Source of the DNA: a virus
Direction: 5' to 3' (one strand)
Length of the DNA stretch: 42,972 bases
Virus record (IMG/VR): IMGVR_UViG_3300027896_000082
Coordinates: 1 to 42,972 of that record
Shown: piece after piece, positions 1 through 42,972 of the stretch
Position numbering within the stretch: the first letter of the stretch is position 1
How the letters are laid out: each line of letters begins with the position of its first letter
Program-made: the position numbers and the translations under genes
The notes under the pieces: model-generated
Told to the model about the DNA's origin: nothing
The model's database searches: none
What the model saw: the letters and a program-made list of their open reading frames with translations, nothing else

Positions 1-144
1 TGAATACTGCCGGTAGTATATATTTTAATATTGATAAAACATCACTGAACAACATGGTGTCTGAAAGAGAATAAAATAATCCTCTAGTTGTTTGTATTGA
101 ATCCGTGAGTGTCATTGTATCTGAAAGCGTCCGGTAATATACTG
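1..144. repeat. Terminal overlap with 42829-42972 (circularisation or terminal redundancy)
   Basis: Bases 1-144 match 42829-42972 with one difference, A at 18 against G at 42846. On the minus strand this changes an ATA codon (Ile) to ACA (Thr) in the adhesin. The overlap implies a circular map or circularly permuted genome. The mismatch looks like population variation or an assembly error. Confidence 0.9.
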
Positions 145-4105: not shown

Positions 4106-7101
4106 GCTAACCTGTGCTTCGATTTTCCGGTCTTATCATCCACGAGGTTTGCCCGGAGAACGTTCTTTAAAGTCTCAGCAAGTTTTGAAACATCTTGTTG
4201 ACTATTCACTTGCGGATTATTGATATTCACAATGACACTATTTCTAATCTCACCGGCTGGCCGAACACTTTCCCCACGATGTAAGAGATAAGGTCCGGTC
4301 TCAGGAACGTAGTCGGTTCCATTTGCGTATTGCCCAAGTAGTTCTTTAAACTGAATAGGAACAAAACCTCCGGTCTGCGTCTTTGGAACTAACGTTTGAT
4401 TTGGTATTGGATTTGTTCCAACCGTGTAATTACCCGCATTGTTTGTTGCGAGAAAATCTAAGTAGTCCTGATATTTTGATTTCGCTTCATCTATCATATC
4501 GAAGCCTAAAAGTTTTTTATATGCTTCTGCGGTCTCCGGGTCTTTACTCAGAGTGACCAGAGCCTCATAGTATGAACGTTCAATTGAATTCAATTCCTTG
4601 TATTCTTTTTGAAGGGTTGTCTTATCTTTTGAAAGAATATTATTCTGTTGGTCAATAGAATTCTGTAAATCGATGACATCCTGTTGACGGGTATCTTCAA
4701 GTAGAAACATTTGATGTTGCTGATAATCAATATATGCTTGCAGTATGTCCTTCGCTTTATCGTATGCGGTCTGTTGTTCATCATTTGTCTTATCGTTGTT
4801 CTTTACTTCCTCGTCATATTGGTTTTGCATTTCCTGAATCTTTATTTTCGTGTTCTCGATTTCGAGTTGCTTCATCTCACGTTGCTCTTGTCGAGTATTC
4901 CCACGCCGTCTAATCATTCCTATAAGTTGAAGTTTAAGCATCTGAATATTGTTCTGTTCCATTGCTATCTCTAGGTCGTGATTTGCATCGGTGACTTTCT
5001 TTGTCTCTTGCTCCGTTTCCTTCAATGCGTCATTGTATTCATAGATAGTCTTGAGAACATCAGACATGTTATTTCCGTATTGGTCAAACACGTTTGTCCA
5101 TTCGTTGATATATTGTGAACCGTATTTCTCAGCCATCCCTGCGTATTCCTGGAATTCTTCGAAACCAATCTTACCTTTCTTGAGAACAAGTTCTGCATTC
5201 ATGTCTGAGATTTTCTTTGTTAAATCTGTGATATCTGATTCTAAATTAACTATATTTGTCTTATATGTATCAATCATATCAGAGGCATTGTCGAATGCTG
5301 ATTTGACATCATCCATATTTGGACGAAGTTTTGCCTCTGCATTCGTAAGAGCATCAAGTGTTCCGGTTGTCTGTGCAATCCGTGTATTGACTAAATCCAA
5401 TGTTTTGTTTAATTCTGTCATCGTTGAATTGAGTGATAACGTTGGTATTCCCAACTGGACAAGTTGCTTATTGAGCAATGTTATATATTCACCTTTATCT
5501 TTGGGTATTTTTCCGCCTTCTGGTATTGTCGGAAAAATAGCTTTACCCATGACATCGGTGACTGTTTTCTGTGAAGAATTTTTAAGATATTGAAGAGCAA
5601 TCTGAGCATTGTTCAAAGCGGTGGCTTCTGTATTCGCAGATTCCGCTTGGTCAGTTAAATCAAGATATTGTTTAATGTCTCCAAAGTGAGTGATATCCTT
5701 TAAGACGTTAAGAGATTGACCTAGGGATGATTTAGCCGGATTGAATAACTTATCGTATATCGTGGTCTCATTTGAAGATGCTGGAGAAACGATGTTATCC
5801 AAATATGCTTGTTTTATCGCCTGTGCAGAAGTATCAAATGCTTGGACTGCGGCATCTGCATTTCCACCAGAAAATAAAGTTCCCCACCACAACTGGACTT
5901 TCTTCCACCAGATATCGACACCGGACCATGCTTCACCGACAGAACGTTCAACCTTCTGCATTGATTGGTCGAGTATATCTGCAAGTTTCTGTTGCGTGTT
6001 CATCATTGAGGCAAGTGCGTCATCGGTTCTACCGGTTGCATTCTCAAGGAGACCCATATCGGTAGCCATTCCTTTTACGCCTTCGTCAGATGTTAAAGCC
6101 ATAGCCACACGTAAACTACGCATGTTTGTAATGAGTTGAGGAAGAATCTGAGAACCGTATTTCTTCGTTGCATCATTAATTTGTTGGAAGAAATCTGTGA
6201 GACCATTTACAGATAATGATGTTTCATCGACACTGATTCCATATTTAGCCATCGCTTCTTGGACTGATTTCGTAGGATTCACCAATCCTTGAATCATAAG
6301 ACCGAGACCACGAGTGACGGAATCAATGTGTTGTCCAGCACGAGTAGCCGTTGAGATTGCGGCGGCGACATCCTGGAATTGAACTCCGGCATCTGCGGCA
6401 ATGGGTATGATATATCCTAATGCGGATTGTAAACTATCCAAAGTCATGTTTCCTCGTGCAACCGTCTGAAATAATTCGTCAGAAAGATGAGAGGCATTTG
6501 AAACAGACATACCATACGCATTGAGAATCTCAGTTAATGTTGTGGTGGTTGACTCGATGGAAGCCATACCTGCGATAGCTGTCTTCGTTGCCACATTCAA
6601 TAGATTCATGGCATCCGTGACACTGAAACCGGCTTTAACAATTTCCATTAGACCGGTTGATAAATCACCAACTGATTTACCGAACTTTATTGAAAGATTC
6701 GTTATTCCCACTTCAAGTGACGGCAACGCAGTTCTTGTAGTATCTGTCAATATTGCATTTACTCCAGCCATTTGAACTTCGAAGGAACGGAACGCTTTAA
6801 CACCATCATCGATGAATTGTCGTAATTCGTGATATGCTTTTGTAGCCTGACCAATGATTGCATTAACACCAATAAACTTCATCATTGTAGAGGTAAGAAC
6901 ATTTCCTAATGCGCTATACGCCGTTGATGTCTGAGTGGTTGTCTGTTTCATCGTTGCCCAAACACCATCAGCATTTTTCACTTGCGAAGTAATTGTTCTT
7001 AACGTGCCACTATAACTTTCAAGTTGGCGGGTCATCTCCGCCATTCCTTCATTCGAATATTTTATTGTGACACTTTTTACCACGTCAGCCATTGTTCTCA
7101 C
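4102..7101 (-). CDS. Tail tape measure protein
   Basis: The longest gene (999 residues), following the tail chaperone pair, as expected for the protein that sets tail length. Residues about 90-300 carry the classic tape-measure core: a GDLSTGLMEIVKAGFS segment, TEILNAYGMSVSNASHLSDEL, and AAAISTATRAGQHIDSVTRG. Residues about 590-850 are long charged coiled coil (EQREMKQLEIENTKIKIQEM). The start is either GTG at 7101, overlapping the previous TGA, or ATG at 7092. No membrane segment was obvious. A tail of roughly 150 nm would follow from the usual 1.5 Angstrom per residue rule. Confidence 0.92.
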   Translation of the reverse strand: MRTMADVVKSVTIKYSNEGMAEMTRQLESYSGTLRTITSQVKNADGVWATMKQTTTQTSTAYSALGNVLTSTMMKFIGVNAIIGQATKAYHELRQFIDDGVKAFRSFEVQMAGVNAILTDTTRTALPSLEVGITNLSIKFGKSVGDLSTGLMEIVKAGFSVTDAMNLLNVATKTAIAGMASIESTTTTLTEILNAYGMSVSNASHLSDELFQTVARGNMTLDSLQSALGYIIPIAADAGVQFQDVAAAISTATRAGQHIDSVTRGLGLMIQGLVNPTKSVQEAMAKYGISVDETSLSVNGLTDFFQQINDATKKYGSQILPQLITNMRSLRVAMALTSDEGVKGMATDMGLLENATGRTDDALASMMNTQQKLADILDQSMQKVERSVGEAWSGVDIWWKKVQLWWGTLFSGGNADAAVQAFDTSAQAIKQAYLDNIVSPASSNETTIYDKLFNPAKSSLGQSLNVLKDITHFGDIKQYLDLTDQAESANTEATALNNAQIALQYLKNSSQKTVTDVMGKAIFPTIPEGGKIPKDKGEYITLLNKQLVQLGIPTLSLNSTMTELNKTLDLVNTRIAQTTGTLDALTNAEAKLRPNMDDVKSAFDNASDMIDTYKTNIVNLESDITDLTKKISDMNAELVLKKGKIGFEEFQEYAGMAEKYGSQYINEWTNVFDQYGNNMSDVLKTIYEYNDALKETEQETKKVTDANHDLEIAMEQNNIQMLKLQLIGMIRRRGNTRQEQREMKQLEIENTKIKIQEMQNQYDEEVKNNDKTNDEQQTAYDKAKDILQAYIDYQQHQMFLLEDTRQQDVIDLQNSIDQQNNILSKDKTTLQKEYKELNSIERSYYEALVTLSKDPETAEAYKKLLGFDMIDEAKSKYQDYLDFLATNNAGNYTVGTNPIPNQTLVPKTQTGGFVPIQFKELLGQYANGTDYVPETGPYLLHRGESVRPAGEIRNSVIVNINNPQVNSQQDVSKLAETLKNVLRANLVDDKTGKSKHRLA

Positions 7102-7672: not shown

Positions 7673-7732
7673 CCGGAGTTGAACCGAGTTCATTCCCACG
7701 AAAGAATTAGAGAAGGGGAAATTAATCCCCTT
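7673..7732 (-). repeat. Intergenic element after the tail tube gene: hairpin plus T-arm-like motif
   Basis: On the minus strand the tube stop codon lies in a 7-bp hairpin (arms 7726-7732 and 7713-7719) followed by pyrimidine-rich sequence. Then come GTGGGAAT and a CGGTTCAACTCCGG motif (rc of 7673-7686) shaped like a tRNA T arm. The same arrangement follows the major capsid gene at 11222-11286. It could act as an mRNA 3'-end, a stabiliser or an attenuator. Confidence 0.6.
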
Positions 7733-8615
7733 AGACGGTTGCGTATGAGATGGTCGTTCCAGTGAAGGGAGCATTCTCTTTCATTATATCTCCACTGATT
7801 CCCTCATCAACCTCACTTGACTTCCATTTGCAGTCTGCGAGAGTGATTTCAGGACACCCTGCGCCACCTAATGCGATGACCAGTGTGAATGCGTTCTGGT
7901 TTACCACATCGGCAAGGTGAACACCACCGCCTTCGTCAAGTGAAATATCACAAGACCCGGTAATATTCAATTCTCCCTCAACCGCATATTGTTTGTCAAG
8001 AGAACCGACATCGAAGTGACTCTTCACACCATTATCAATCGTTAAGTCTAGTGAATTGGTGATGTAAGCCAAATCTCCACTATTCCCCTGGATTGAACCG
8101 GCGATGTTGAATGCGCAGATATCTCCGCTAAGAGCGGCTGGGGCTGAACCTGTTGGTGTGGAACTTGTAACTACACTTTTCACATCGAAGTCCATTGTGT
8201 AAAGCCATTCGTTATTCAATGTTCCAGACACACGGCAGGTTTTACATTTTGCACCTTCGATTTTATAAATGGTCTGGTCAGAACCGAGACAGGCATTTGT
8301 TTGAAGATAGAACATTATTGAGTTCAGTGAACAATCAGACGGGTCACGTATAACAGCATCTTCAAATAATGTGTCTCCGCATTGCGGAATATACTCTAAG
8401 TGAAAAGTATAATCATCGCATTGTTCTAGTAATTCATTTGCCTCTGGTTTATCGAAACCTCGAAGTGGTTTATGTTTTGTCGAAATGCCGACTCTTGCAT
8501 CGAGCACCTTAATGGAAATAGGTAGACCCGTAGTTGTGGGGCTTGCGGCTACACCATAAGATGACTCAATATAGTATCTTATTTCCCCTTGAAAGGGAAG
8601 TCCTAGACTTGCCAT
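7731..8615 (-). CDS. Major tail tube protein
   Basis: A 294-residue protein placed before the chaperone pair and tape measure, the usual tube position. It has beta-rich sequence throughout and an N-terminal LPFQGEIRYYIESSYGVAA typical of tube proteins that begin with a G-x-x-xYY strand. It contains about 10 cysteines (among them AKCKTC and GCPEITLADC), unusually many for a tube protein. A strong GGAGGAAA-type ribosome-binding site precedes the ATG, consistent with high expression. A hairpin and a repeated intergenic element follow its stop. Confidence 0.75.
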   Translation of the reverse strand: MASLGLPFQGEIRYYIESSYGVAASPTTTGLPISIKVLDARVGISTKHKPLRGFDKPEANELLEQCDDYTFHLEYIPQCGDTLFEDAVIRDPSDCSLNSIMFYLQTNACLGSDQTIYKIEGAKCKTCRVSGTLNNEWLYTMDFDVKSVVTSSTPTGSAPAALSGDICAFNIAGSIQGNSGDLAYITNSLDLTIDNGVKSHFDVGSLDKQYAVEGELNITGSCDISLDEGGGVHLADVVNQNAFTLVIALGGAGCPEITLADCKWKSSEVDEGISGDIMKENAPFTGTTISYATV

Positions 8616-11221: not shown

Positions 11222-11286
11222 CCGGAGTTGAACCGGCTATATTCCCACTGAGACATTAAAGAATGAAAGAAGGGAGAATCCCCTCT
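11222..11286 (-). repeat. Intergenic element after the major capsid gene: hairpin plus T-arm-like motif
   Basis: On the minus strand an 8-bp hairpin with a 3-nt loop (arms 11279-11286 and 11268-11275) overlaps the capsid stop. It is followed by a TTCTTT-rich stretch, GTGGGAAT, and CGGTTCAACTCCGG (rc of 11222-11235). The same order is found after the tail tube gene at 7673-7732. No complete tRNA fold fits upstream. Confidence 0.6.
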
Positions 11287-12481
11287 AACATTGCACTGGA
11301 GTCTTGATAAGATAGATAGCCCCGGTATCCAATTCGTCAATACCGACATACATGTGAATTGCGACAGTTGTTGAGTCACAATCAATGTCACGGTCTTGCT
11401 CCATCTTGGGCTTCATACCCCATCCTTCACCAACGGCACGGCTGGAATCAACAACGATTGCAACAACGGTATCCGTGACGGTTGAACAAGCGGTGGCACA
11501 TGGGTATTCGATGACTTCCATGCTACCGATTTTTCCGAGTTCATTTCCATTGAACGAAATGTTGAATCCCTGTTGGCTAAGAGCCTGTTGGTATTTGAAG
11601 AATGCGGCGAGAGCCGGACCCATGATAACGTAGTCAGGGTGGTATCCGTTGGTTCTCATCGTGGCTTCGATATCAATCAATATGTTATACAAGTTGATTT
11701 TCTGGAAACAACATGAGTCAAGGCTAGGTCCGGAGCAACAGGTATCCAGATGAACGTGCGAAGCACCAGAACCGGCTAGTTGAGACCAAATCTCGGAATC
11801 AACCTGTTCTGCGAGAGCATCAGCCATATCTTGAAGAATGCCATCCTTCACGACATCGCCAGCAAGTTGCAGGTCGAGTTCACAAATCTCAGCAAGGTCT
11901 CCGTATGAATCCAGAGTCAATTGGTATTTAGTGAATGAACTGGAAACACAACTGAGACACTCACATGGGTTCAGTGGTCCTTGGGCGGTTCGCTTTCCAC
12001 GGACACGGATAGAAACGGTATCTCCAGCACCACGGGCAAAGTCAACACCACGAACAGTGATTTTACCGGCAAGATATCCCTTGCAGTAGAATGCGCCCCA
12101 AATCAAATTTGCGAAGACTTCATCGGGAGTCCAGTCGGAAACATCGTTGTCACATCCACTATCTGAATCACTGAATTCATATCCGGTGATATAGTTGGTG
12201 CTACCATATTCAACTGGCTTGTAGCCATGACGTTTGTTGAATCCTTCGGCAAACTTCGATAGGTTGTTCTTGGGTGCTTTTGTTTTGTTCGGCGTGAGGT
12301 CAATACCGGAAGGTTGCTTTGCGTTCATTTCGGACAGGACTTTCTCCCGGACTTTGGCTTCGAGAGCCTTCTCCGCTTCAATCCGAGCAGTCTCAGCCAT
12401 TTCAGCCTTTAGTTTATCAGCCTTTGCCTTCGTCAGAGCAAGTAGTTCTGCCTCGGCTTTGGCAAGTTCCTCGTTTGTCAT
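11285..12481 (-). CDS. Major capsid protein, HK97 fold
   Basis: A 398-residue protein directly after the maturation protease gene. Residues 1-60 are charged coiled coil, like the scaffold or delta domain removed by the protease. The rest suits an HK97 shell protein: a strand-rich central region, the long helix DGILQDMADALAEQVDSEIW, and a P-domain segment NGYHPDYVIMGPALAAFF. It has 14 cysteines (CECLSC, TCCSGPSLDSCC, CATAC), far more than usual, which suggests disulfide-stabilised capsids. The ribosome-binding site is GGAGGAAA. It is followed by a hairpin element. Confidence 0.85.
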   Translation of the reverse strand: MTNEELAKAEAELLALTKAKADKLKAEMAETARIEAEKALEAKVREKVLSEMNAKQPSGIDLTPNKTKAPKNNLSKFAEGFNKRHGYKPVEYGSTNYITGYEFSDSDSGCDNDVSDWTPDEVFANLIWGAFYCKGYLAGKITVRGVDFARGAGDTVSIRVRGKRTAQGPLNPCECLSCVSSSFTKYQLTLDSYGDLAEICELDLQLAGDVVKDGILQDMADALAEQVDSEIWSQLAGSGASHVHLDTCCSGPSLDSCCFQKINLYNILIDIEATMRTNGYHPDYVIMGPALAAFFKYQQALSQQGFNISFNGNELGKIGSMEVIEYPCATACSTVTDTVVAIVVDSSRAVGEGWGMKPKMEQDRDIDCDSTTVAIHMYVGIDELDTGAIYLIKTPVQC

Positions 12482-12482
12482 T

Positions 12483-13646
12483 TTAATTTTCCTCCTTTAA
12501 TTGTTTAATTCGTTTATTGATTTCCGCCAAATAATCGGCGTTCTTTTTATCCTCGTCAGCACCGCTAACGGGGGTCTGATTGCATTTACATGAGTCGCAA
12601 TCGCATTTTTCGGCATAATCCCCTATACCGGCTTCTTTTGCCGCCGCACGTAGTTTGTTCATTGCTTTTTCACCGAATGGTGACTGCGGAGCACGAGCCA
12701 GGGCATTTCTTAGATGAGGCAAATCCACTTTACCGTCACTGCCTTTATATGGGAAATGTCTCAAACTGCGGGGAACTGTTTTATTCTCTTCGTCTTTTGA
12801 ACCACCCGATTCAATATAGGCGAAAGCGGAATCCGGCAAGTTGTTAACGTATGCCGTATCCCAAACAGAGAACTCTTTCTCGGTCATATTTTCCTCCTCG
12901 GAATGTGTGCAAAGACCGCAACCTTTTGCGTCACTACACACGCCTTTCAAACAAGTTGTCAAAGCAACGGGAATGATACTCATTAGACTTGGAACCATTT
13001 CATCCTGTGCTAACGCGGATGCTTCGCAATCACTTGCTCTTATCATTTTTGACTTAGCCTGGACGGACATACTCACATTAGGTATTTTACCTGCGGCTTT
13101 ATTGATGTCAATAAATGATTTCCAAGCAGAGTATTTTGGAGAATTTTTATTAACGTGAACATCCATTGTTATTTCTTTTGTCTGGTCATTTGCGTGTGAA
13201 TTGTCTTGATATCCAACAACGTATTCTAGATTCTCACGAGACATGAACCCACCAGGATATGATGTTCCAAGGTGACTTAAATCGTGATAGGTTCCGTTCC
13301 ATAGGTTTACTGATTTTTTCAGTTCATTATATGGAACGTAGACACCATTCATCATTCTATCCCCGATGACGGCAGTTGCCCGCATGTGAATCCAGTTTTC
13401 GTCCTCTCGAAGTTTTCCATCCGATGTATTTTCGACAGGTTGTAAATTTGCGGAATTCTCAATGACATGCAACTCGGCGGTGAATGTATATTCAGAATAA
13501 TTTGTTCCTTTCTTTATATGTTGGTCATACATTCCTTCGCATTTCCCCTTTGCGGCTTCCGGTGTCATCCCTTCACTATCTACGCAATAAGGAATACATC
13601 GTTTTAAATAATCGTCACGACTTTCGCCTTTTTTTATTGCTGGCAT
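12483..13646 (-). CDS. Capsid maturation protease with C-terminal accessory domain
   Basis: A 387-residue protein upstream of the capsid gene. Residues 50-200 resemble head maturation serine proteases: His in NGTYHDLSHLG (H121) and Ser in IPNVSMSV (S192 or S194) are candidate catalytic residues. Residues about 265-345 match a domain often attached to phage capsid or protease proteins (PDSAFAYIESGG, VPRSLRHFPYKG, LPHLRNALARAPQ). Residues 10-45 and the KCDCDSCKC tail add metal-binding-like cysteine clusters, 12 Cys in all. It would cleave the capsid N-terminal scaffold region in the prohead. Confidence 0.75.
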   Translation of the reverse strand: MPAIKKGESRDDYLKRCIPYCVDSEGMTPEAAKGKCEGMYDQHIKKGTNYSEYTFTAELHVIENSANLQPVENTSDGKLREDENWIHMRATAVIGDRMMNGVYVPYNELKKSVNLWNGTYHDLSHLGTSYPGGFMSRENLEYVVGYQDNSHANDQTKEITMDVHVNKNSPKYSAWKSFIDINKAAGKIPNVSMSVQAKSKMIRASDCEASALAQDEMVPSLMSIIPVALTTCLKGVCSDAKGCGLCTHSEEENMTEKEFSVWDTAYVNNLPDSAFAYIESGGSKDEENKTVPRSLRHFPYKGSDGKVDLPHLRNALARAPQSPFGEKAMNKLRAAAKEAGIGDYAEKCDCDSCKCNQTPVSGADEDKKNADYLAEINKRIKQLKEEN

Positions 13647-24943: not shown

Positions 24944-25114
24944 TTATTCACCCTTTTTTATCCGGTAATAATTCAATCGTCCTGTGGTCATCGTCACACG
25001 ATAAAAATCATATTCACCAGAAGTGAATATATATTGACCATCTCTTCGGACCTGGAAATTAGTTTTATAAGAGTGACCCCACGTTCCATTACATTCATCT
25101 AATAGTGCCGCCAT
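24944..25114 (-). CDS. Unknown 56-residue protein
   Basis: A short gene starting MAALLDECNGTWGHSY and ending in a basic strand-rich region (GRLNYYRIKKGE). The pattern DGQYIFTSGEYDFYRVTM suggests a small beta-sheet fold. It lies in a closely spaced minus-strand series, two bases after the previous stop. No family is recognised. Confidence 0.5.
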   Translation of the reverse strand: MAALLDECNGTWGHSYKTNFQVRRDGQYIFTSGEYDFYRVTMTTGRLNYYRIKKGE

Positions 25115-25116
25115 AT

Positions 25117-25218
25117 TTAATCACTTCCCTCACTTGAATTAATATCTTTCAACTTATTCTCCTTCAACCGGACCTGGACTTTATCAGCCTTCACCAAAAC
25201 AACATCAGAATCACTCAT
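25117..25218 (-). CDS. 33-residue miniprotein
   Basis: A tiny charged ORF, MSDSDVVLVKADKVQVRL to its end, placed between two other small genes. A TAA two bases before the next ATG suggests coupled translation. No motif is visible. Reality rests on packing alone. Confidence 0.35.
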   Translation of the reverse strand: MSDSDVVLVKADKVQVRLKENKLKDINSSEGSD

Positions 25219-25220
25219 AT

Positions 25221-25355
25221 TCAGTCCTTAATGTATTTATGGTTTTTGTTCTTACGATTTGGAGAACACCGAAGACGCTTTCCCGTTCTCCGTTTATACC
25301 TTTTAATGTAACTCTCAGTCCACCTGCAATAATAACAATATCGATATCCGTCCAT
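25221..25355 (-). CDS. 44-residue basic zinc-knuckle protein
   Basis: An ATG at 25353-25355 directly abuts the previous TAA, with GGAGGGATTAA upstream as a good ribosome-binding site. The N-terminus MDGYRYCYYCRW has a CxxC, with a further Cys at residue 30 and His at 39, a possible zinc knuckle. The rest is lysine/arginine-rich. It may bind nucleic acid. Confidence 0.5.
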   Translation of the reverse strand: MDGYRYCYYCRWTESYIKRYKRRTGKRLRCSPNRKNKNHKYIKD

Positions 25356-36411: not shown

Positions 36412-36592
36412 AATAGTATCATCTGCATTAAGCGCAGAAGATACAAAAAGTCTCTATTGGGCTACGGTTGAATCCGTGTATCAATTATGGGATGATGTGG
36501 CAAACCAGGAGATAAAAGGAATACCGACAATATCAAACACTCAGAAAATGAATCTTGCCGCTTCATTATTCGCTTTCTTATATGGTGTCTAA
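36389..36592 (+). CDS. Unknown small helical protein
   Basis: A 67-residue protein overlapping the previous gene by 23 bases, starting MEKRDIIRIVSSALSAED. It is helical with an aromatic middle (YWATVESVYQLW). It ends one base into the resolvase start. No family is recognised. Confidence 0.4.
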   Translation: MEKRDIIRIVSSALSAEDTKSLYWATVESVYQLWDDVANQEIKGIPTISNTQKMNLAASLFAFLYGV

Positions 36593-36906
36593 TGCCAAAC
36601 AAGAACTACATCAAAGGACGAAATTTCGAATACCGAATAAAGAAGATGTATGAACATGATGGTTATCTGGTGTTCAGGACCGCCGGTTCTCATTCACCTG
36701 CCGACCTCATTGCCTTTCCCTTTCCGGGAACTGATAAACCCATCTTAATTCAATGTAAAGCAAGCGACAAAAAAGTATCATCAAAAGAATTAAGCACCCT
36801 GAAACATTTCGCATATCAATATAACCTTCGTGCGGTGCTCATCACAAAAATAGGACCAGGGATTCGTTTAGTGTGGGTTGAAGGACATGACAAAAAAAGA
36901 AACTGA
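36592..36906 (+). CDS. Hjc-type Holliday junction resolvase
   Basis: A 104-residue nuclease. YIKGRNFEYRIKKMYEHDG carries E13, FRTAGSHSPADLIAF carries S33 and D38, and ILIQCKASDK carries K56. This is the archaeal Hjc plan (E, then pD, then x-x-K). The usual Glu before the Lys is replaced by Gln-Cys, as in some viral and archaeal homologs. It would resolve branched DNA during replication or before packaging. Confidence 0.85.
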   Translation: MPNKNYIKGRNFEYRIKKMYEHDGYLVFRTAGSHSPADLIAFPFPGTDKPILIQCKASDKKVSSKELSTLKHFAYQYNLRAVLITKIGPGIRLVWVEGHDKKRN

Positions 36907-37369
36907 ACCAAACGTGTGTCTTATTCCGGTTGACGCACAACCGCCGACCTTCGGAATGGTATTGAGTATCATGGCAATTGCTGACAATTACGATGAAATC
37001 GTTATTTGCGTCAAAGACCAACCGATTGTCCAAGAGACAGACGTTGTTGTAAAACTACTTCAAATAATCTTCAAGTTACCTAAATATATGGTAATATCAA
37101 ATAAAACATCATTTGAAACAATAGCGGAATTCCCGGAAGGTTTACCGTTCTTTAACCACATGGCAACACTTTCGGAACGGGTGTATGCCAATCTTTTCGT
37201 GAAAGGATTCGGGTGTCTATTGATACCACGGCTCATCGGATACGATGATATGTTTTCCAGGAACGCATGGAAACAAAGTTGCGCCTTGGATATCTTACGT
37301 GCCAATAGCCGACAAGTTCCACTTAAAGACGACAAACCCGCACCATCGGCGGAGGAGGATGATGAATAG
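36887..37369 (+). CDS. Nucleotidyltransferase-fold-like protein, active site degenerate
   Basis: A 160-residue protein from ATG 36887 (TTG 36878 possible). Its N-terminus AQPPTFGMVLSIMAIADNYDEIVICV resembles the NMN/cytidylyltransferase pattern F-x-P-x-x-x-GH followed by a helix and a D-E-I-x-I strand. The GH of the catalytic HxGH is read here as GM, and no ISSTxxR motif is seen. It may be an inactive or diverged relative. The C-terminus is Pro/Asp/Glu-rich. Confidence 0.4.
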   Translation: MTKKETEPNVCLIPVDAQPPTFGMVLSIMAIADNYDEIVICVKDQPIVQETDVVVKLLQIIFKLPKYMVISNKTSFETIAEFPEGLPFFNHMATLSERVYANLFVKGFGCLLIPRLIGYDDMFSRNAWKQSCALDILRANSRQVPLKDDKPAPSAEEDDE

Positions 37370-37744
37370 ATGGCATTTACAGAACAGCGTGAGGAGATTA
37401 TCTTCGCCGTATTCGGAAAGGAAAAGGTCAAACCCGGTCAAGAAAAAAGTTCCTACATTGTAGAACCTAATCAGACTGTTGAGGGTCTGGTGGTAAATAT
37501 CACCGATTCTCCCATGTATAAAAAGGTCTACAAGTTGCAGGTGAAAGGAGTAGTTGATTCCAAGGGCGCACCTTGTCCATTGGTTGTCACTGGTAAGACC
37601 GCCTTGAATGACGCAATGGGCTACGGTAGTAAACAAGTTCCTCCTGTGAAAGAAGGAGACCTAATCCGGCTTACTTATCTCGGTATGCACAAGACCGGAA
37701 AAGGAAAAGAAGCCTACAAATTTAAACTTGAGGTAGACCGTTAA
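37370..37744 (+). CDS. OB-fold-like, probable ssDNA-binding protein
   Basis: A 124-residue protein. Residues 30-124 show strand pattern YIVEPNQTVEGLVVNITD, VYKLQVKGVVD, then VKEGDLIRLTYLGMHKTGKGKEAYKFKLEV, typical of small OB-fold proteins common in phage replication modules. Several such genes act as ssDNA-binding proteins. Its place between the resolvase and metabolic genes supports a DNA role. Confidence 0.55.
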   Translation: MAFTEQREEIIFAVFGKEKVKPGQEKSSYIVEPNQTVEGLVVNITDSPMYKKVYKLQVKGVVDSKGAPCPLVVTGKTALNDAMGYGSKQVPPVKEGDLIRLTYLGMHKTGKGKEAYKFKLEVDR

Positions 37745-37776: not shown

Positions 37777-38079
37777 ATGTCACAAGATAATCTCAACATC
37801 AAGGAAACAGAGACCGTTCAACCTTCGGAACCGAAGAAAGATGAACCTATTGTTTACAAGAATTGGCTTATCATCTACTGGTCAAAAAACAGAAAACCAG
37901 AACTATTAAATAATATCTACGTTGACGAGGCTACCATCACCGGAACTCGTCTGTATATCAAACAACCGGATGTTGATGGCGTGATTGAATTCTGCCGTCT
38001 GAGAGGAATTGATTGTTATTGCGTTTTCAACGATAAACATATTCAAGTTGCGGTCGATGGGAGGCGTTTGAAGATATGA
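37777..38079 (+). CDS. Unknown protein
   Basis: A 100-residue protein with an acidic disordered N-terminus and a compact alpha/beta part (NWLIIYWSKNRKPELL, VIEFCRLRGIDCYCVFNDKHIQVAV). It overlaps the cysteine synthase start by 4 bases, so the two are translationally coupled. A gap of 32 bases precedes it with no clear ribosome-binding site. Confidence 0.45.
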   Translation: MSQDNLNIKETETVQPSEPKKDEPIVYKNWLIIYWSKNRKPELLNNIYVDEATITGTRLYIKQPDVDGVIEFCRLRGIDCYCVFNDKHIQVAVDGRRLKI

Positions 38080-39026
38080 TTAAGCCCGGTAATACTCCAT
38101 TAGTTGAATTGGAGACATTCAAATTGGGGAACGTTCACATTTACGCCAAAGTTGAAGGATGCAATCCCGGTGGGTCAATAAAGGACCGAGTAGGCTTTTG
38201 GCTCGTTAAGAAATACATTGATTCTTGCGTGAAATCAAATACGAGTTCGAAGACCAAGACAATCATCGAGGCTAGTTCAGGAAATACAGGCATCGGTGTC
38301 TCCATCGCTTGCTCTATCTACGAATTAAAATGCCTTATTTGCGTTCCTAAATCCACGTCACAAGAGAAGATATCAATTATGAAATCTTTCGGTGCAACCA
38401 TCTATCAAGTCGATGGAACCACGGATGATTGTATTAAGTGGTGTGAGTTCACCGCTAAACTTAATCCAGATAACATAGTTTGGTTGAATCAATTTGATAA
38501 TCAAGAATGCGTGGAGTGCCATTATAAAACAACGGCAATAGAATTATATAATGATTCAATCCAGTATACTCACGACACATTTGGAAAAGGTGTTTGGAAA
38601 GAACGAGATGACCGAAATATCATCGTTTGTTCTATGGGAACCACCGGAACCATCATGGGATTAAGTAAGCGATTCAAACCGTTGGGATGGGCAATAGTTG
38701 GCGTGATGCCACAACCAAATGTAAGAATCGAAGGATTAAAAAATCTTCAAGTTCAAAGAGTTCCTAAGATATGTGATATTAAAGAAATTGACCAGATAAT
38801 TCAAATATCAGATGTTGATGCTTTGATTACTATGCGTGAACTTGCACGGTCTGAGGGAATCATGGCTGGACCAAGTTCCGGTGCGGCATTATATGTTGCA
38901 TCGATTATTGCAAAACAATATTCGGCAGAGAAAAGACGGACCAATATTATTGTCATTCTCCCTGACCGTGGACAGAACTATCTCAGTCAAGGCGTGTGGG
39001 ATGAAAAAGGAGTAATGCCTAAATGA
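38076..39026 (+). CDS. Cysteine synthase (PLP-dependent, CysK/CysM type)
   Basis: A 316-residue enzyme, full-length for the family. NPGGSIKDR contains the PLP lysine K36. SSGNTG (67-72) is the substrate loop, GTTGT (188-192) the phosphate-binding loop, and PSSGAAL (266-272) the Ser that contacts the pyridine nitrogen. The conserved PDRGQNYLSQG is near the end. It would make cysteine from O-acetyl- or O-phosphoserine and sulfide. An unusual metabolic gene for a virus; it sits coupled to an unknown gene and a membrane protein. Confidence 0.93.
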   Translation: MIKPGNTPLVELETFKLGNVHIYAKVEGCNPGGSIKDRVGFWLVKKYIDSCVKSNTSSKTKTIIEASSGNTGIGVSIACSIYELKCLICVPKSTSQEKISIMKSFGATIYQVDGTTDDCIKWCEFTAKLNPDNIVWLNQFDNQECVECHYKTTAIELYNDSIQYTHDTFGKGVWKERDDRNIIVCSMGTTGTIMGLSKRFKPLGWAIVGVMPQPNVRIEGLKNLQVQRVPKICDIKEIDQIIQISDVDALITMRELARSEGIMAGPSSGAALYVASIIAKQYSAEKRRTNIIVILPDRGQNYLSQGVWDEKGVMPK

Positions 39027-39298
39027 TTGCGGATATTATTTTGGTGTTTGCATCATTGGGTTTCGTGAGTGCCGACCTTAAACAAGTATGGAAATTGTTT
39101 AAAAATGGTCAACACGATATGCAGATTTTAAGTAAGACACATTTCCGTTTGAAAATATTATCTCTTTGTTTGACCGTGGTTGCGTATGCTATGTTAGGTG
39201 TTTATATGGCTCTATGCGTGGCATTCACTCAATTACTATTGAATATCTGGATTCATAATAAGATTGGATGGAGACATAAACAGGGGGATATCCGATGA
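39023..39298 (+). CDS. Three-helix membrane protein
   Basis: A 91-residue protein overlapping the cysteine synthase by 4 bases. It has three hydrophobic segments (IADIILVFASLGFVS, RLKILSLCLTVVAYAML, VYMALCVAFTQLLLNIW). The layout recalls half-transporters of the PQ-loop/SemiSWEET type but no PQ motif is present. Tight coupling to the cysteine synthase hints at transport of an amino acid or sulfur compound. This is speculative. Confidence 0.5.
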   Translation: MIADIILVFASLGFVSADLKQVWKLFKNGQHDMQILSKTHFRLKILSLCLTVVAYAMLGVYMALCVAFTQLLLNIWIHNKIGWRHKQGDIR

Positions 39299-39420: not shown

Positions 39421-39554
39421 AGAAAGCAATGAGTTATGTTTTAGATATTGATGATTGGATTTCTCACATGAATTATTCAGAGTTATTTGATATACGAGAA
39501 ATAGCCAACAAAGAAATTAAAAAAAGACAAGATGAGGAGAGGTATAAATATTGA
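39417..39554 (+). CDS. Unknown 45-residue acidic helical protein
   Basis: MKKAMSYVLDIDDWISHMN then a charged helix. Its last codons contain GAGGAGAGG, the ribosome-binding site for the following TTG-start gene, and the TGA overlaps that TTG. No family is recognised. Confidence 0.4.
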   Translation: MKKAMSYVLDIDDWISHMNYSELFDIREIANKEIKKRQDEERYKY

Positions 39555-40030
39555 CGAAGAAACTTGACCTTTACCTTGCCCATTCATTTGACCGAAGACA
39601 CGAATTCAGGATTTTGGAATTGGATTTAGAGAAACAATATAATATTAATCTATTCAATCCGTTTTTCGATTTAATGAACAGAAAGGACCGCAGATTGATT
39701 CTATCCAAGATAAATCGTAGTTCTAATGGGGATACAAAACTGTTCCACCGGACACAAAAAGAATGCGAAGAACTTGTTTACCGAGACCTTTCAAACATCG
39801 ACAACCGGGATGGTTTGCTTACAATTATTCACGAGCCTAGCCTTGGCACAGCATTCGAGATTTCTCATGCCCATAAGACCGGTAAACTTGTGTTCGTAAT
39901 AAGTGAGAAATATTGCGAACACCCCTGGGTGAGAGTCTACGCCAATTATCGGTTTAAAAGCATTGATGAATTCATTTCTTGGCTGGAGAAGCATGGCTAC
40001 CGCAAGAAAAAAGAAGCCCGGTTTATATGA
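39551..40030 (+). CDS. Nucleoside 2-deoxyribosyltransferase-like protein
   Basis: A 159-residue protein. LYLAHSFDRR at the start, RDLSNIDNRDGLLTI (aspartates at 79 and 84-87) and EPSLGTAFEISHAHKTGKLVFVI (E103) fit the nucleoside 2-deoxyribosyltransferase fold. Family members exchange or remove bases on deoxynucleosides, and some phage copies act in base modification or salvage. TTG start with GGAGAGG upstream. Confidence 0.7.
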   Translation: MTKKLDLYLAHSFDRRHEFRILELDLEKQYNINLFNPFFDLMNRKDRRLILSKINRSSNGDTKLFHRTQKECEELVYRDLSNIDNRDGLLTIIHEPSLGTAFEISHAHKTGKLVFVISEKYCEHPWVRVYANYRFKSIDEFISWLEKHGYRKKKEARFI

Positions 40031-42437: not shown

Positions 42438-42972
42438 TATGAATCCCTCACATATCGCAATGTGATTCTGTATTCGAAGACATCGATTCCAATTGGATTA
42501 ATGGATATGTTCTCAATGACGTAGACACCATTGTAAATCGAAGATAGACCGGATACCGTCACTGTGCTACCTTCATCAGCAACGGACCCAAGCATTGTGA
42601 ATTTTGGCATCGGAGAAACGGCATCATACCCGGCAAGGACCACTCTTTCATCATTCACACTTTGTATATATGAGACATAATTTGTCGAGTGGCATCCTTC
42701 GAATGATAGATTCATTAAATCGAAATTCAAATCTCCCTGTTGTCCGTTCCAATATGGCATGTAAATACTTATTGAATTTGCAGTGATGCAATTAGACGCA
42801 CCAACAGGAGAATCCCCCCAGGCTATTGTGAATACTGCCGGTAGTGTATATTTTAATATTGATAAAACATCACTGAACAACATGGTGTCTGAAAGAGAAT
42901 AAAATAATCCTCTAGTTGTTTGTATTGAATCCGTGAGTGTCATTGTATCTGAAAGCGTCCGGTAATATACTG
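42437..42972 (-). CDS. Tail adhesin, C-terminal part (N-terminal part is 1306-1)
   Basis: This is the 3' end of the gene that starts at 1306. Residues after the 20-mer repeats read LSDTMLFSDVLSILKYT, then a beta-rich domain of about 130 residues (ISIYMPYWNGQQGDLNF, TVTVSGLSSIYNGVYVIENI, EYRITLRYVRDS). Bases 42829-42972 duplicate 1-144. The ACA codon at 42845-42847 (Thr) is ATA (Ile) in the other copy. Confidence 0.8.
   Translation of the reverse strand, partial: VYYRTLSDTMTLTDSIQTTRGLFYSLSDTMLFSDVLSILKYTLPAVFTIAWGDSPVGASNCITANSISIYMPYWNGQQGDLNFDLMNLSFEGCHSTNYVSYIQSVNDERVVLAGYDAVSPMPKFTMLGSVADEGSTVTVSGLSSIYNGVYVIENISINPIGIDVFEYRITLRYVRDS

Follow-up and report, generated by a model that had tools for sequence, protein, structure and literature searches.

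Why should a tailed virus carry a gene for making cysteine? An initial annotation of the DNA discussed here recognised a cysteine synthase gene and proposed that the enzyme meets a viral demand for cysteine, created by unusually cysteine-rich virion proteins. The window, by which we mean the whole stretch of DNA analysed, comprises the 42,972 nucleotides of IMG/VR record IMGVR_UViG_3300027896_000082. A direct repeat joins its ends, and the record is therefore regarded as a closed, essentially complete genome of ~42.8 kb. With genes for terminase, portal, HK97-type capsid protein, tape measure and primase-helicase, it belongs to a tailed dsDNA virus, of which no close isolate was found in the phage collection searched. 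The gene and the repeat are located as follows:

38076..39026, + strand, CysM-like cysteine synthase (fold type II PLP enzyme), 316 aa, intact ORF, assigned by profile, PDB matches, alignment and model
1..144, direct terminal repeat of 144 bp, 99.3% identical to 42829-42972

The family of the encoded enzyme is clear. Its match to Pfam PALP (PF00291; E 1.8e-58, 198.7 bits against a gathering cut-off of 35) is far beyond chance, and its best PDB sequence matches are CBS and OASS/CysM enzymes. Cysteine synthase models are also its top scorers in NCBIfam, cysKM and CysM highest, yet all four remain under their curated cut-offs: 218 of 344 bits for TIGR01136 (cysKM), 209 of 413 for NF008735 (CysM), 189 of 394 for TIGR01138 and 188 of 351 for TIGR01139 (CysK). 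For this reason the protein is filed as CysM-like, and scores of this kind do not guarantee its exact reaction. The complete set of PLP-enzyme motifs that had been reported for the gene is indeed present, each at the position given: GGSIKDR (32-38) with K36, the predicted Schiff-base lysine; EASSGNTG (65-72) with the SSGNTG loop at 67-72; NQFD (138-141); GTTGT (188-192); and GPSSGA (265-270), with SSGA at 267-270. In an alignment of 30 sequences, drawn from the virus family, other viruses, and bacterial and archaeal homologues, T7, P8, K25, S34, K36, D37, R38, S68, G69, N70, Q139, G188-T189, G191-T192, S267 and others are invariant. None of the key residues has been lost, since the PLP lysine, the SGN substrate loop, Q139, the phosphate loop and the C-terminal Ser are all kept.

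Structure prediction, which the initial annotation had suggested as a check, gave a confident model (pLDDT 90.5) whose nearest solved structure is E. coli CysM (2bhs, rank 1, E 4e-26, TM 0.80/0.86). With the CysM/OASS-B enzymes of E. coli (2bhs) and M. tuberculosis (3dki) the viral protein shares the fold, the PLP lysine, the substrate loop, the GTTGT loop and the closing PDRG..YLS; it differs from them in its overall sequence (~30% identity), a shorter N terminus and a variable insert at about residues 157-178 (window 38544-38609 approx.). This insert is poorly predicted, with residues 171-176 below pLDDT 50. In two otherwise near-identical relatives, G006 and G007 (L023 and L024), it coincides with a sharp patch of DNA divergence that looks like recombination or rapid change. 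The gene is under purifying selection, as dN/dS is ~0.10-0.14 in the pairs window-G008 (for which dS is saturated), G006-G008 and G007-G008, and 0.37 in G006-G007 with the divergent patch included. Taken with the motifs and the CysM-matching model, these ratios agree with the activity first proposed from the motifs, and the enzyme is probably catalytically competent. As to its substrate, K222 ('GLKN') aligns with R220 ('ALRN') of M. tuberculosis CysM, a basic residue that we take to be tied to the use of O-phosphoserine. Since the bacterial CysM relatives compared usually have Lys here as well, K222 cannot separate OAS from OPS use. For Campylobacter jejuni CysM, OAS is the sole substrate (PMC9855970).

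Cysteine desulfhydration and other beta-replacements also use this fold. An enzyme of the former type would release sulfide from cysteine and so alter host physiology, and the H2S-producing Fn1220 is found among the structural matches of our model. However, it ranks below the CysM and CysK enzymes at the top, and extra sulfide seems pointless in sediment, which is already rich in sulfide. We regard a desulfhydrase as unlikely here, even though a Lactococcus phage cysK offers a precedent: in a phage-host model, degradation of cysteine by the virus leads to sulfide production, according to a review (PMC12713726, citing Kieft et al., 2021).

The setting of the gene bears directly on the idea of virion demand. 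The synthase had been described as lying next to the cysteine-rich virion genes. Instead, it sits in a + strand block of early and replication genes (Prim-Pol, Hjc-like, OB-like), joined to the genes on both sides by 4-base overlaps:

36592..36906, + strand, Mrr/Hjc-like nuclease, same operon as the synthase
36878..37369, + strand, nucleotidylyltransferase-like protein (weak match), same operon, TFGM replacing T/HxGH
37370..37744, + strand, small protein, possible OB-fold guessed from the sequence alone, same operon, common across the virus family
37777..38079, + strand, small protein with no function assigned, sharing 4 bases (ATGA) with the start of the synthase, confined to the window's subclade
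39023..39298, + strand, small membrane protein overlapping the synthase stop, present in genomes without the synthase too
39551..40030, + strand, nucleoside 2-deoxyribosyltransferase-like (NDT-like) protein (weak match), kept in the family whether or not the synthase is there

The - strand carries every virion gene identified (portal, capsid, tube, tail); the major capsid protein (MCP) gene is ~26 kb away, and the closest tail genes, counted over the circular join, are roughly 4-7 kb away. In the nucleotidylyltransferase-like protein, the second His of T/HxGH is Met in the window's subclade. The membrane protein is kept in nearly the whole virus family, and its orthologue in genome G037 (5667-5960) matches the Pfam PQ-loop family (E 6e-5).

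The virion proteins in question are indeed rich in cysteine:

11285..12481, - strand, HK97-type MCP, 14 Cys, all kept in those subclade members whose sequence covers them
7731..8615, - strand, putative tail tube protein, 10 Cys (assignment of the initial annotation, no family match)
12483..13646, - strand, putative prohead protease, 12 Cys (assignment of the initial annotation, no family match)

Of the counts given earlier, those for the MCP (14 in 398 residues), the tube (10 in 294) and the protease (12 in 387) hold, whereas in the distal tail protein we count 13 Cys among 571 residues rather than about 15 among 557. Cysteine is unevenly spread among the virion proteins of the window, with none in the 999 residues of the tape measure and one in the 493 of the portal.

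Relatives with and without the gene were needed for a comparison. The window virus is a member of a family of uncultivated tailed viruses, which was assembled by terminase and capsid searches, close relatives first and the wider family after. When the synthase alone was used for a pattern scan of IMG/VR, nothing was returned, which is explained by the relatives being only 50-55% identical; they were found when the relatives' records were searched directly. One candidate member, G015, was dropped because all it shares is a terminase at 24%. A PALP gene is present in 11 of 17 near-complete family genomes, nine of them CysM-like and two very divergent (G013 and G040). All near-complete relatives in the window's own subclade carry one: each of the four near-complete close relatives has an orthologue in the slot that the synthase occupies in the window, and a fifth, G013, has a divergent PALP there. 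In the wider family the CysM-like genes lie outside this slot, adjoining the primase gene in G019, G041 and G043 and the DNA polymerase gene in G054. The remaining six genomes (G037, G044, G048, G018 and the more distant G058 and G060) have no PALP gene. G037 is closed by a 92-bp repeat, and the absence in G044 is unlikely to be a gap, as this genome (42.1 kb) exceeds the length of its closed sister G041 (41.6 kb). A methyltransferase and DNA polymerase A are found at the counterpart of the window's slot in G018 and G037. This patchy distribution requires at least three changes between presence and absence of any PALP gene on the terminase tree. The synthase is thus a viral auxiliary metabolic gene (AMG): it is of cellular type, lies in a closed genome that also encodes terminase, portal, capsid protein and tape measure, and is accessory. 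Two observations may be added on individual genomes. The PALP of G013 (L025 1498-2322) lies in exactly the window's operon slot and groups with that of G040, and G044 encodes, downstream of its primase, a sulfotransferase-like protein (38603-39253, L309 603-1253; PF13469, E 2.5e-9) in the stretch that holds the synthase in G041.

If the enzyme were carried to satisfy an exceptional need of the capsid and tail proteins for cysteine, relatives without it should have less cysteine in these proteins. They do not. The comparison rests on four genomes without a PALP gene, G037 (closed), G044, G048 and G018, all outside the window's subclade and related to the window at family level (terminase ~45% identical). 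Their capsid proteins have 15 Cys each (15/419, 15/411, 15/447 and 15/451) and their tube proteins 8-12. With the two most distant members excluded, mean MCP cysteine is 3.49% with the gene (range 2.73-4.65%) and 3.48% without it (3.33-3.65%; Mann-Whitney p = 1.0), and mean tube cysteine is 3.06% and 3.15%, respectively (p = 0.95), even though treating genomes as independent biases such tests toward finding a difference. Genome-wide cysteine is 1.74-1.99% with the gene and 1.71-1.96% without. The sharpest case against the demand link is the sister pair G041, with the synthase, and G044, without it. Their MCPs are 93% identical, and their cysteine counts are equal in the MCP (15), tube (9), adaptor (6) and portal (4). 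Moreover, 11 MCP cysteines are invariant across distant family members with and without the synthase. From the equal counts and these invariant residues it follows that cysteine-rich virions are a trait of the family and do not require the synthase. The presence of the synthase is not explained by how much cysteine the virion contains, and the demand proposed at first, for which the cysteine-rich proteins of the window and the conserved capsid cysteines of its subclade had spoken, is now very unlikely to be why the gene is carried. This is a clean comparative test, with a negative outcome, of the tempting idea that a metabolic gene is carried by a virus to cover the cost of its virion composition. 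The very cysteine-rich HK97-type capsid protein of the family is left unexplained and may merit structural study; a disulfide or metal network formed by its cysteines is possible.

Could the enzyme then serve another chemistry? It might make a non-protein amino acid or a thioether by beta-replacement (SbnA-, CBS- or modification-type), perhaps for nucleotide or protein modification. The NCBIfam scores under cut-off would fit this, the NDT-like and nucleotidylyltransferase-like neighbours weakly hint at nucleotide chemistry, and in G013 the slot is taken by a second, very divergent PALP lineage. However, the active-site motifs are sulfhydrylase-like throughout, and a dedicated pathway of the synthase with its membrane and NDT-like neighbours was rejected because both persist in genomes without it. 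Such a role is therefore quite improbable. The presence of two distant PALP lineages in one slot, that of the window's clade and that of G013, has also led us to consider that the family is selected for an early-operon fold type II PLP activity other than ordinary cysteine supply. We give this little credence. If it were true, the sulfotransferase-like gene in the corresponding stretch of a sister virus would suggest a sulfur-linked early function, for example thiol-based modification or counter-defence.

The reading that we consider probable is a functional CysM-type enzyme, carried as accessory early cargo and gained and lost independently of virion cysteine. The synthase would be made early in infection from the polycistronic replication operon, and would act as a CysM-type O-acetylserine/O-phosphoserine sulfhydrylase. 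By the usual ping-pong PLP route, starting from the K36 aldimine, beta-elimination of acetate or phosphate from host O-acetyl- or O-phosphoserine would give alpha-aminoacrylate, and attack by sulfide would yield cysteine. The sulfide may come from an anoxic sediment habitat, where it would be plentiful. More cysteine would then be available in the infected cell generally, for protein, Fe-S and zinc proteins and redox thiols, and within the virus family the gene could be gained, lost, moved or replaced regardless of virion cysteine.

Viral cysK is already established, and the window gene is a new, well-separated example of it. Our search met 63 such loci in IMG/VR, and Lactococcus P087-type phages carry a cysteine synthase. 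These phage synthases (P087 and relatives, many IMG/VR contigs, phrog_11528) belong to the same enzyme family and likewise occur in tailed viruses, in P087 also within a non-structural gene block, but on a quick tree they represent a separate acquisition. In this tree the nine CysM-like genes of our family form one supported group (96*) near or beside bacterial (Thermodesulfobacteriota) CysM, and the other viral cysK genes make up a large group elsewhere; the PALPs of G013 and G040 sit on a long branch of their own, with unsure placement. The nearest cellular matches of the synthase are from Thermodesulfobacteriota and other anaerobes (39-40%); as the cellular sequences in the tree are best matches only, no donor is named. 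Viral cysK, together with cysH, has been reported as auxiliary genes in marine sediment surveys of the Mariana Trench and of seamounts (PMC8725595, PMC11018836), whose sections on these genes give neither a family-level distribution nor a link to virion composition.

For the host, a terminase scan of GTDB contigs gave no provirus, and a terminase search of the phylum to which a Thermoplasmata MAG belongs (390 genomes) was likewise empty; in the phylum of a Desulfohalobiaceae MAG (395 genomes) two distant terminases turned up, neither accompanied by further genes of the family. Within the window, the Hjc-like nuclease and the lack of a recognised endolysin may point to an archaeal host, and RadC and holin-like genes to a bacterial one. 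The RadC gene is the following:

28042..28452, RadC-like JAB protein, present in one of five close relatives (G013)

It brought to mind the CysM/CysO/Mec pathway of the M. tuberculosis type, which was rejected, as G013 is the one close relative with RadC and inspection by eye showed no ThiS-like partner. Elsewhere in the window, positions 25000-28000 combine strong GC skew (~ -0.3 at 24-26 kb) with no convincing genes and are possibly an origin or non-coding region. Finally, a putative tail fibre gene crosses the circular join and contains tandem 'LSDTMTLTDTI' repeats (1-250 and 42829-42972).
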